Assembly (NCBI GenBank): GCA_011390155.1
Contig: JAABSW010000006.1
Location: 62,001 to 126,000 of the forward strand
Direction: 5' to 3'
Length of the DNA stretch: 64,000 nt
Source of the DNA: Clostridiaceae bacterium
Lineage (GTDB): Bacteria; Bacillota; Clostridia; Peptostreptococcales; Tindalliaceae
Shown here: piece after piece, positions 5,732-63,124 of the stretch
Position numbering within the stretch: position 1 is the first letter of the stretch
Layout of the letters: the number at the start of each line of letters is the position of its first letter
Translations under genes and position numbers: made by a program
Notes under the pieces: generated by a model
Told to the model about the DNA's origin: nothing
Databases searched by the model: none
What the model saw: the letters and a program-made list of their open reading frames with translations, nothing else

Positions 5732-5912
5732 AAAAAAATGCCTTCAGTCCCTTGTTAGGGACGAAAGCATGTTGCTTCACTTCCGCGGTTCCACCCTTAT
5801 TGGGATTTGTCTTGCAAATCCCCACTTTCAATCAGATCAGCTCCCAGGTTCCCTTCATCACGTATCAATACCAGGCTTTCACCCTCCCCGGTTCGCTGAA
5901 ATCAATAACTGT
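5732..5912 (-). promoter_or_regulatory. T-box leader (riboswitch) of glyQS
   Basis: On the minus strand the leader carries AGCGAACCGGGGAGGGTGAAAGCC (typical of the distal part of stem I), a separate hairpin GGGATTTGCAAGACAAATCCC, the T-box AAGGGTGGAACCGCGG (5783-5798) that pairs with the tRNA acceptor end, and a competing terminator ATGCTTTCGTCCCT with its complement followed by seven T (5732-5770). The 5' limit is uncertain and seems to reach the recO stop. Gly specificity is inferred from the downstream gene; I could not fix the specifier codon. Confidence 0.9.
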
Positions 5913-5914
5913 GA

Positions 5915-6793
5915 TTACTCTTCCTGTTCATTGCCGAAGGCCTTATCTTCATCTTCATTGAATGTATCAAATTTGGCTTCTTCTGTCAATCCATGAGCTG
6001 CTGATCCGGTCTCTGGTTGTCTGCTTTTGGCAGATGGCATTGGCAGCAGGTCATCCACCTGGGGTAAAAGTTTAAGGCTTTTAAACTGATATCTTCCCAT
6101 ATGGTACAGCAAGTATGCCTTGTTGATCTGCTGTAGTTCCTCGTTTAACCGCGGGTGAATTTTCAAATGCTGAGAGTCAGTGATGTCTTTGGTTTGAAGA
6201 TACCTGGCTAACTTAAGGCATGTTCCAGAGATCAGCAGCGTATCTTTTTCTTTTGAGCGACATTCATTACAGATGAGACCGCCTTGTGATAAGGAAAAAT
6301 ACCATTTCTTATCCTTGCTTTTCTGACAATGAGTGCAGTGAAATAAATTTGGTTCATAACCACAGACAGTCATAAACTGAAGTTCAAATGACCTAATTAG
6401 TGTTTCAATTTCTGTTGTTTCATCGCTGAGTAGAGAAAGGGCTTTCCCAAACAGGTTAAAGAGCTTTGGATGACTTTGCTCCTCACTAATTTCTATCTCA
6501 ATCAATTCAACGATGTACGAAGCGTAGGTGAGTCTCCGATAATCTTCACGCAGAGGATAAAAAGTTTTCAGTGTGTCAACTTGGTTGACTGTATACATAC
6601 TCCTGCCTTGGTACAGTAGAAAATGGGAGTAGGAAAATGGTTGTATCCCAGCCAACATTTGACTTTTCGCCCTGCGCGATCCCTTTGCGACAGCACTGAT
6701 TCTTCCCAATTTACGGCTGAAAAGAACAAGCAAGCTATCAGCCTCATTGTATTTACGACTCTTAAGAACAAAAGCATCTGTGTTCATCAGCAT
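5915..6793 (-). CDS. recO: DNA repair protein RecO
   Basis: RecF-pathway recombination mediator that helps load RecA on SSB-coated DNA. The N-terminal OB-fold reads AFVLKSRKYNEADSLLVLFSRKLG; the central helical part includes ELIEIEISEEQSHPKLFNLF; a four-Cys zinc site CTHC...CNEC lies near residues 150-180. The 292-aa length is slightly long because of an acidic tail (FNEDEDKAFGNEQEE). The second in-frame ATG (6787) is an equally possible start. It is the last gene of the phoH-pgpH-ybeY-dgkA-DUF3048-cdd-era-recO run and abuts the T-box leader. Confidence 0.95.
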   Translation of the reverse strand: MLMNTDAFVLKSRKYNEADSLLVLFSRKLGRISAVAKGSRRAKSQMLAGIQPFSYSHFLLYQGRSMYTVNQVDTLKTFYPLREDYRRLTYASYIVELIEIEISEEQSHPKLFNLFGKALSLLSDETTEIETLIRSFELQFMTVCGYEPNLFHCTHCQKSKDKKWYFSLSQGGLICNECRSKEKDTLLISGTCLKLARYLQTKDITDSQHLKIHPRLNEELQQINKAYLLYHMGRYQFKSLKLLPQVDDLLPMPSAKSRQPETGSAAHGLTEEAKFDTFNEDEDKAFGNEQEE

Positions 6794-12655: not shown

Positions 12656-13633
12656 TCACTTATTTGATGCCCGCTCCTGATCGTGCTTCTCATAGGCTTT
12701 TATAATTTTCTGTACCAGACTATGACGCACCACGTCTTTTTCACTTAAATAAACTATTCCAATTTCTTCTATTGCAGATACAATTTCCAACGCTTGAATC
12801 AGTCCTGATGACTTTCCTCTTGGAAGGTCTATTTGTGTAATATCTCCTGTGACAACGGCTTTTGAACCCACTCCAAGTCTTGTGAGAAACATTTTCATTT
12901 GTTCTCTTGTGGTGTTCTGGGCTTCGTCCAGAATAACAAAGGCATGGTCTAGTGTTCTGCCCCTCATATACGCTAAAGGAGCTACTTCAATGAGCCCACG
13001 TTCCATGTATTTCTGGAATTTATCATAACCCAGTATGTCAAACAGAGAATCATAAAGAGGTCGAAGGTATGGATCTATTTTGTCTTTCAAATCACCTGGC
13101 AAGAACCCCAAGCTTTCACCCGCCTCTATGGCTGGTCTTGTGAGAATAATTTTTTCCACATCCCGGTTACCAAAAGCTTTAACAGCCATTGCTACCGCTA
13201 GGTATGTCTTTCCTGTGCCAGCAGGTCCTATGCCAAAGGTTAGGTCTTGTTTTTGCATCATCTGAACATAATTGGCCTGACCAAGGGTTTTCGATTTTAT
13301 TGTTTTGCCTTTGGCAGTCATGTAAACTGACTCTCCAACAAAAGAATCCACTTTCTCTAATTGGTCATCCTTTACCAAACTAATCAAATAGGATACTTTT
13401 TGAGCATCAATAGGTTCCGCTTTATTCTTTTCTTTAAGCAAACTCTCCACCACTTTTGCGGCACTATCAAGGCTTTTCTTTTCTCCAAGGAGTAAAACCG
13501 ACCCTCGACGCGCCACCATTTCCACATTAAAAGCTTCTTTTATTAGTCTGGCATGCTCATCCTGAGAACCGAATAATTCCTGCATCCACTCAGCATGTGA
13601 CACCGTGATTGCTAATTGTTCCGTCCGACTCAA
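12656..13633 (-). CDS. phoH: PhoH-like ATPase
   Basis: Cytoplasmic P-loop ATPase of the PhoH family, with a proposed role in RNA metabolism because it is regularly next to ybeY. The ORF-track ATG (13648) has no good ribosome site. The TTG at 13633 has GGGAGG seven bases upstream, so 325 aa is chosen. An N-terminal KH-like part (residues ~1-100) precedes Walker A GPAGTGKTYLAVAMAV and Walker B VILDEAQNTT. It is the first gene of the phoH-to-recO operon; a promoter lies about 60 bases upstream. Confidence 0.95.
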   Translation of the reverse strand: MSRTEQLAITVSHAEWMQELFGSQDEHARLIKEAFNVEMVARRGSVLLLGEKKSLDSAAKVVESLLKEKNKAEPIDAQKVSYLISLVKDDQLEKVDSFVGESVYMTAKGKTIKSKTLGQANYVQMMQKQDLTFGIGPAGTGKTYLAVAMAVKAFGNRDVEKIILTRPAIEAGESLGFLPGDLKDKIDPYLRPLYDSLFDILGYDKFQKYMERGLIEVAPLAYMRGRTLDHAFVILDEAQNTTREQMKMFLTRLGVGSKAVVTGDITQIDLPRGKSSGLIQALEIVSAIEEIGIVYLSEKDVVRHSLVQKIIKAYEKHDQERASNK

Positions 13634-13687
13634 TGACAGTCCTCCCATCTATTTTCACCCGTAACGGGTTATAACACATTTACACCT

Positions 13688-13716: not shown

Positions 13717-13800
13717 CCAAGAACAACCAAGGTCTAAGCGCATACATAAACAGGATTCCATAAGTAGATGACTCAAATGTACCATTTGGTGGCAGATACT

Positions 13801-13870
13801 TAGTTTGTTCACCCAGAGACGCGCCGCTAAGACTCCCTCTTGCAGAAGAAGTCTTAGCGGTGTTAGTCAT
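13801..13870 (+). repeat. Structured intergenic repeat, copy A
   Basis: A 70-bp element beginning TAGTTTGTTCACC and ending TTAGTCAT. It contains an 11-bp perfect inverted repeat (CCGCTAAGACT at 13824-13834 and its complement at 13850-13860) around the loop CCCTCTTGCAGAAGA. A second, inverted copy lies at 62612-62686 with the same ends and loop. It sits between the phoH promoter and the terminator of the upstream gene. No coding capacity is apparent. Confidence 0.8.
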
Positions 13871-13878
13871 CGGATACA

Positions 13879-13926: not shown

Positions 13927-14439
13927 TTACGAACGCATGGATTTGGGTTTGCCTATCACTTCAGAGAAAATAATACCATTAAGGATTGCTTCCTCCGTCA
14001 TGTCAAATCCGACTTCAAATGACTGGTCTTTGATCTCATCTTTATAAACAGGACTTTTTTTGTTTGTGAAACTTGGTTTTATCGGCTTCTTTTCTTTCAA
14101 TGTGCGCGCTGAAGGTGCATCAATACGGGGATCTGTACTTTCATAAGTGAACGTGGCTGCAGACTTTTCTTTTTTCTGGATTGCTGGAGCAGATTGTTTT
14201 TTCTTGTCTCCTGCCAGTTCAGTGACTTTCTTATATTCAGACTCAACTTCCTGTTGCATCTCACGGAACAGATCCTGCAGGGTTCTCTTCCCTGGTTTTT
14301 GTTGCGTTGTCTTACTGGGTTGGGTTTGTGTCTGGCGCTTTTGTTGCTGGCGTTGCTTATGTTGTGCCTCTTTTCGTTTGTTTGCAAAGGAACTTACTAC
14401 AACAAAGAGGATAAAAATCAGGATGCTTTCTATTTGCAT
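13927..14439 (-). CDS. Hypothetical membrane-anchored protein next to floA
   Basis: I do not recognise a named family. 170 aa: one N-terminal membrane segment (ESILIFILFVVVSSFA), then a long Gln/Lys-rich charged stretch (QRQQQKRQTQTQ) and a disordered-looking middle. A short conserved-looking C-terminal helix AILNGIIFSEVIGKPKSMRS resembles the ends of small uncharacterised proteins I recall from other Firmicutes. It is the third gene of the nfeD-floA unit, 35 bases after floA, where Bacillus carries yqfB/yqfC/yqfD, and a terminator follows. A role with the flotillin membrane domain is a guess from position only. Confidence 0.75.
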   Translation of the reverse strand: MQIESILIFILFVVVSSFANKRKEAQHKQRQQQKRQTQTQPSKTTQQKPGKRTLQDLFREMQQEVESEYKKVTELAGDKKKQSAPAIQKKEKSAATFTYESTDPRIDAPSARTLKEKKPIKPSFTNKKSPVYKDEIKDQSFEVGFDMTEEAILNGIIFSEVIGKPKSMRS

Positions 14440-62518: not shown

Positions 62519-62611
62519 CCACCTCCCATGATGCATTGATTCCGCCTATTAATACCCTTACTTATTATGTTCACACAGGTTATGTTGAGCACTCCTGTCC
62601 TCCCGTTACCC

Positions 62612-62686
62612 ATGACTGCCACCGCTATGGCTCTCTCTTCTGCAAGAGGGAGATAAGCGGTGCTACGTCCCTAGGTGAACAAACTA
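62612..62686 (-). repeat. Structured intergenic repeat, copy B
   Basis: A 75-bp element in the opposite orientation to copy A (13801-13870). Read on the minus strand it starts TAGTTTGTTCACC, has stem CACCGCT/AGCGGTG (62620-62662) and the same TCCCTCTTGCAGAAGA loop, and ends GCAGTCAT. Its first TAG is the stop codon of the MOSC gene. The stem arms differ from copy A but remain paired. Confidence 0.8.
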
Positions 62687-63124
62687 GTCTTTTGCCATTA
62701 CCTCTATGCTGTCACCTTCTTTAATGGTGCCGCCTTTTAGTACACGGGTAAAAATACCTTCTCTGGGCATCACACAATCGCCAACTTTCTTGAAGATCTC
62801 GCATCCATGATGGCATTTTTTCCCAATTTGAGTGACTTCCTGTATGGTCTCACCCACTTGCAGTTTTGTCCCGATGGGCAATTCGTATAATACGATGCCT
62901 TCTGTCAAAATGTTTTCAGCAAAAATACCTGCTTCAAGGTTATCTATACCCAGGGCTTTAATTTTATCCACACTCTCTTGCCCTAACAGACTGACCTGCC
63001 GATGCCAGTCTCCCGCATGTGCATCGTCCTGTAAACCATGATTTTCTAAAAACATTCCTTCTTTAACCGGTGTTTTAATGACACCTTTTTCCCGACTGAT
63101 ATTGACTGCCAGTACCTTTGCCAT
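62684..63124 (-). CDS. MOSC domain protein
   Basis: 146 aa, a single MOSC (molybdenum cofactor sulfurase C-terminal) domain: AVNISREKGVIKTPVKEG, the His/Asp region NHGLQDDAHAGDWHRQVSLLG, FAENILTEGI, and a Cys-rich KCHHGCEIFKKVGDCVMPREGIFTRVL. Bacterial stand-alone MOSC proteins are tied to molybdenum-cofactor or sulfur handling. It lies about 110 bases after a MoeA-type gene. Its stop codon is provided by repeat copy B. Confidence 0.9.
   Translation of the reverse strand: MAKVLAVNISREKGVIKTPVKEGMFLENHGLQDDAHAGDWHRQVSLLGQESVDKIKALGIDNLEAGIFAENILTEGIVLYELPIGTKLQVGETIQEVTQIGKKCHHGCEIFKKVGDCVMPREGIFTRVLKGGTIKEGDSIEVMAKD

Follow-up and report, generated by a model that had tools for sequence, protein, structure and literature searches.

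Two damaged copies of a modular and almost certainly mobile hairpin repeat found in many Clostridia

Copies A and B, two structured sequences in a clostridial genome, are damaged copies of one modular element. This element is almost certainly a mobile, non-autonomous, protein-less repeat. Both copies lie in the 64-kb stretch of DNA that was analysed as a whole (the window). The initial annotation described a two-copy structured repeat, and the similarity of A and B is real. The loop is identical, the ends match, and both copies fold better than shuffled sequences (z of -4.9 for A and -2.3 for B). Within the window the loop CCCTCTTGCAGAAGA has exactly two occurrences, 13835-13849 (+) and 62636-62650 (-), against a chance expectation of 0.12 with up to two mismatches allowed. 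The 32-nt ends at 13790-13821 and 62666-62697 form an inverted pair that is 78% complementary. A covariance model also placed only two copies in the window, but the genome holds tens of copies and copy B is on the opposite strand. Copy A had been placed at 13801-13870. Its true span is 13746-13876 (13746-13877 in the match to covariance model R1) and starts further 5', because a remnant of module 1 and a second hairpin module are included. The features are as follows.

13746-13876, plus strand: copy A, internally deleted, by alignment to the 187-nt family consensus and by an empty orthologous site in the same-genus genome G001
13746-13758, plus strand: remnant of module 1, 5' end ATAAACAGGATTC, hairpin P1 deleted, by comparison with full copies
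13759-13813, plus strand: module 2 hairpin CATAAGTAGATG...GTTTGTTCACC, optional, elsewhere also alone or nested
13814-13876, plus strand: module 3 of copy A, P3 hairpin and 3' end ..GTTAGTCATCGGATA
13822-13834 and 13850-13862, plus strand: arms of P3 in copy A, with the loop at 13835-13849
62606-62688, minus strand: copy B, 5'-truncated, the end of module 2 and module 3, by consensus alignment and covariance model
62636-62650, minus strand: loop CCCTCTTGCAGAAGA of copy B, the same as that of copy A
62684-62686, minus strand: stop codon (TAG) of the neighbouring gene 62684-63124 (-), supplied by copy B sequence, by the ORF list against the element alignment

Copy A lies antisense between the genes 12656-13648 (-), putatively PhoH-like on reading its sequence, and 13927-14439 (-), which is small. 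Element copies can alter genes, as copy B gives a gene its stop codon. That gene is putatively MOSC-like, and its orthologue in G001 has a different end.

The full-length element is approximately 187 nt, modular, and has two or three hairpins. Module 1 (M1) spans 1-65 and contains hairpin P1, module 2 (M2) spans 65-120 and is itself a hairpin, and module 3 (M3) spans 120-187 and contains hairpin P3. The 131-nt core reads ATAAACAG-P1-TTATCCAGGGAC-P3-TAGTCATCGGATAA. P1 and P3 are joined by the invariant hinge TTATCCAGGGAC, the TTATCC of which is able to pair with the GGATAA of the 3' end. The consensus folded with z of -8.6 as RNA and -10.5 as DNA, and the opposite strand with -6.1 as RNA. At least five copies in the same genome have precisely lost M2, and others are reduced to M1 or to the outer ends. 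The copies are protein-less, and at none of the fetched loci did element ends enclose an ORF, as they would in an autonomous version. Pneumococcal BOX elements are similar in their combinable hairpin modules, variable module number and intergenic location, but differ in sequence, and the element described here spans many genera. M2 was also seen as a separate hairpin repeat, either alone or nested at CA^G in the hinge, a P3 loop or a P1 arm, including M2 within M2 (L090, L075 of G047 and L078 of G068).

Further copies were sought by BLASTN and by covariance model, as the initial annotation had proposed. The genome (2.72 Mb, 125 contigs) gave 56 matching pieces by BLASTN and 57 covariance-model matches, some overlapping on opposite strands. 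The estimate is roughly 40-50 copies, complete or partial, of which eight are full-length. More were found in relatives, with matches in 17 of 78 genomes, often to single modules. Genome contigs of other bacteria were searched with the exact architecture pattern TTATCCAGGG-N30-60-TAGYCATCGGATA, estimated to occur at about 0.5 loci by chance, and at least 118 loci matched. The genera among the pattern matches listed were Clostridium, Haloimpatiens, Desulfosporosinus, Sporomusa, Pectinatus, Syntrophomonas, Thermincola, Petroclostridium, Tindallia and others. The core is thus found in many Clostridia and some Negativicutes. It was present in 25 of 291 genomes in a class-wide sample, and the highest single-genome counts were at least 150 copies. 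No match was obtained in plasmids and phages by a distant blastn search run without a positive control, and none in viral contigs by the exact architecture pattern. Rfam (4,227 families) gave no match to the window at the gathering threshold or to seven conserved loci at an E-value threshold. Literature searches by topic and by sequence fragment, with most subscription journals outside their coverage, returned no description of the element. As far as could be found, the family was previously uncatalogued.

Movement was visible as filled and empty sites. Insertion sites were compared with 1.47 Mb of G001, which is approximately 80-95% identical around many element loci. Orthologous sites were empty in G001 at four loci. 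At L218 the empty site reads CTTATAA-GACG and the filled site CTCATAAACAGG...CGGATAA-GACG. The empty sites at L043 and L222 read GTATTTC-TCAAAGGAG and CTTTC-ATCAATTAAAC, and that at the copy A locus (L048) reads CACAAATAAAAGAAGG. Copy B was also missing from the orthologous region of G001. At L219 both genomes have copies, in opposite orientation. In a second species pair, a 197-nt copy in C. ljungdahlii (L134) was missing from C. ragsdalei (L128) between flanks that are 96% identical. The empty site there is TTCTTTATAATAAAATTTTG and the filled site TTCTTTAT-ATCAAGTG...GATCGGATAA-AATTTTG. One copy lay within an ORF among the loci tested; copies were otherwise intergenic. The suggestion of a REP- or MITE-like element is therefore supported by dispersed copies, insertion polymorphism against the sister genome, intergenic location and lack of coding capacity. 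Polymorphism, either between C. ragsdalei and C. ljungdahlii or between L197 and L350, was also seen for other, unrelated repeats of approximately 250-300 bp (L128:2977-3243 and 5904-6148, L197:5780-6085).

The two ends of the element behave differently. The 3' end is GGATAA, followed by random flank. Among 97 copies no host motif was found beyond the ends, except AA after GGATA in approximately 95%. At the 5' end each subfamily has its own pentamer, ATAAA or ATCAA, regardless of the site, so the 5' word is part of the element. In some subfamilies this pentamer is unlike the 3' copy, and the ends are therefore asymmetric, with no simple duplication. ATAA or a near variant is present in all empty sites, and the 3' ATAA is best read, from these sequences, as host target. 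In Haloimpatiens arrays 134-nt matches recur every 130 nt with 4 nt in common, and tandem neighbours therefore share one ATAA. If the element were an ordinary MITE, mobilized by a DDE transposase and duplicating a preferred ATAA(A) target, this would account for ATAA(A) at both ends of most copies and for the single ATAA-like word in empty sites. This reading is unlikely. The element has no terminal inverted repeats, its 5' end being ATAAACAGAG and its 3' end on the other strand TTATCCGATG. In the ATCAAGTG subfamily of the clostridial MAG 38_11 the 5' word is ATCAA, yet the 3' word remains ATA(A). The only empty-site pair that discriminates, C. ljungdahlii and C. ragsdalei, favours no target duplication, as the C. 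ragsdalei site fits the 3' word only. The ATAAA subfamilies may have a target duplication of 4-5 bp.

Single-strand transposition in trans of HUH/Y1 (IS200/IS605-like) type is the best explanation of the element, and is judged slightly more likely than not. Y1 chemistry is suggested by the hairpin ends, the lack of a terminal inverted repeat, the apparent lack of a duplication, and the short retained target. An HUH/Y1-type transposase supplied in trans would recognize, on one strand, the hairpins at the ends, cut the element out and join it beside TTAT, as in IS200/IS605. Insertion would be into intergenic DNA at ATAA (TTAT on the other strand), with one tetranucleotide kept and no separable duplication. 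Optional hairpin modules such as M2 would lodge in the hinge or loops. Old copies would degenerate through exact deletion of hairpins (M2, or P1/P3, as in copy A), through end truncation (as in copy B) and through arm-to-arm copying. IS200/IS605 miniature elements are similar in their imperfect hairpins near the ends, the lack of a terminal inverted repeat, a short AT-rich target beside one end, apparently with no separable duplication, and tandems that share the target word. They differ in that here no tnpA with these ends was found, two adjacent hairpins are joined by an invariant hinge, and the sequence is conserved across a phylum. Replication-strand bias, typical of Y1 elements, was absent over 111 loci (orientation against local GC skew, 55/111). 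The genome G316 showed a mild orientation bias (41/62 by hand count) in the direction opposite to the target side. No transposase carrying the ends of the element was found. In the genome under study the one PF01797 match, the only intact Y1 gene there, was an IS605-type tnpA beside tnpB with different ends, and PF01797 had no match in G001 (75% complete). The absent fork-direction bias and the absent carrier enzyme are evidence against the HUH/Y1 mode.

A more speculative proposal is a phylum-wide two-hairpin family, chromosomal as far as sampled, moved by a hairpin-recognizing single-strand enzyme so far unlinked to any repeat. The enzyme could be an IS200 TnpA that accepts ends other than its own, or an ssDNA enzyme resident in the host. 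If true, conservation of that enzyme would have kept the sequence recognizable across Clostridia and Negativicutes. Short palindromic repeats of bacteria are usually confined to one lineage, and those that are understood are linked to RAYTs in Proteobacteria. Here one architecture extends across very different Clostridia and Negativicutes, and sister species still differ. With one architecture, ongoing movement and no assigned enzyme, the mover of clostridial hairpin repeats becomes directly testable.

Covariation was examined with a 28-pair structure in 29 diverse copies. Standard pairs made up 93% of cells, and double changes occurred in 17 of the 28 pairs. On the main measures none of 500 shuffles scored as high and no slid control came near. 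The covariation across species is genuine. The stem pairs quoted for A and B in the initial annotation are correct, and the selection on structure drawn from them agrees with the covariation across species. The difference between A and B alone does not carry that conclusion. The 5' arm of A, CCGCTAAGACTCCCTCTT, exactly complements the family 3' arm, AAGAGGGAGTCTTAGCGG, and the difference there therefore reads as one arm-copying (template-switch) event and not as a series of separate compensations. As much of the A/B change consists of one arm rewritten wholesale as the complement of the other, the A/B covariation is no proof of RNA selection. Arm copying in the opposite direction was seen at L195 (GGGAGTAAAGAGCGG). 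Arm-to-arm template switching thus yields part of the covariation. Covariation of this origin in DNA palindromes is a caution for RNA-motif discovery pipelines. Imperfect features are also kept phylum-wide, namely the AGGG of the hinge facing AT and the TTAT/TCTTA interior mismatch, and their persistence argues, at the sequence level, for selection.

A structured RNA (sRNA or cis-regulatory) with a cellular function, duplicated incidentally, would fit the phylum-wide invariant hinge and the covariation across species. It would also fit the A-strand excess of G-U over A-C, counted by hand as 23 and 10 cells. This is improbable, as arm copying can make covariation without RNA selection, presence and absence differ between sister species, and scattered copies number up to at least 150. 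There is also no favored orientation or gene context. The strands of the upstream and downstream genes relative to the element were '--' at 39 loci, '++' at 31, '+-' at 17 and '-+' at 16.

Equally improbable is a REP/BIME element served by a RAYT (long Y1, TIRYT or subclass 2.1). Such REPtrons share short intergenic palindromes, high copy number, dimers and tandems with the element. They differ in that REP sequences are 20-40 nt whereas the element is 130-190 nt, conserved phylum-wide and not flanking RAYT genes. The GTAG/GTGG foot of REP is not conserved in it, the position reading GTAG, CTTA, CTAA, CTGT and others across species. Long-Y1 matches were more frequent in element-bearing genomes (17/25) than in others (72/266), one of the 17 (G000) being a dead homologue. 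An element was near a long-Y1 gene at three loci, and none was seen at the remaining long-Y1 loci sampled. Of 88 long-Y1 genes, 38 had terminal inverted repeats of their own, mostly of the GGGGAC/GGGGTCAG type known from TIRYT genes (PMC3733652) and unrelated to the element. A RAYT with matching ends, proposed in the initial annotation, is therefore unsupported, and RAYT as mobilizer was rejected despite the co-occurrence. The only long-Y1 gene in the genus is the dead homologue.

The terminal inverted repeats of TIRYT genes carry GGGGWSAS (PMC3733652), and no REP partner was known for long Y1 of subclass 2.1 (PMC6006769). TIRtrons occur in the same clostridial genomes as the element, but their GGGGWSAS inverted repeats are unrelated to it. 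Clostridial TIRYT genes flanked by inverted repeats with GGGGACGGTTCTT or GGGGTCAGGCTTGAC were observed at L320-L328, L379-L405 and others, and such genes and repeats are clearly a TIRtron family in Clostridia.

The two copies in the window would suggest that an intergenic hairpin was duplicated just once in this genome, but this is refuted by the tens of copies in the genome and the 118 or more loci in other genomes. The outcome that the initial annotation named as refuting its reading, no further copies and vertical conservation of both loci, was not observed.

Two further observations concern Y1 genes. At L368:2399-3762 (G316) two element copies interrupt a yifB/comM-like gene, into which a long Y1 gene runs. 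Outside the window, at L464:1450-2241 (G000:C1, approximately 210.6 kb), a RAYT-like gene present as a single copy lies beside a trxB-like gene. The RAYT-like gene escapes detection with PF01797 and is kept in G001, G002 and G005. Its HUH motif is NEYH and the catalytic Tyr motif is lost; apparently it is a domesticated, catalytically dead Y1 homologue.
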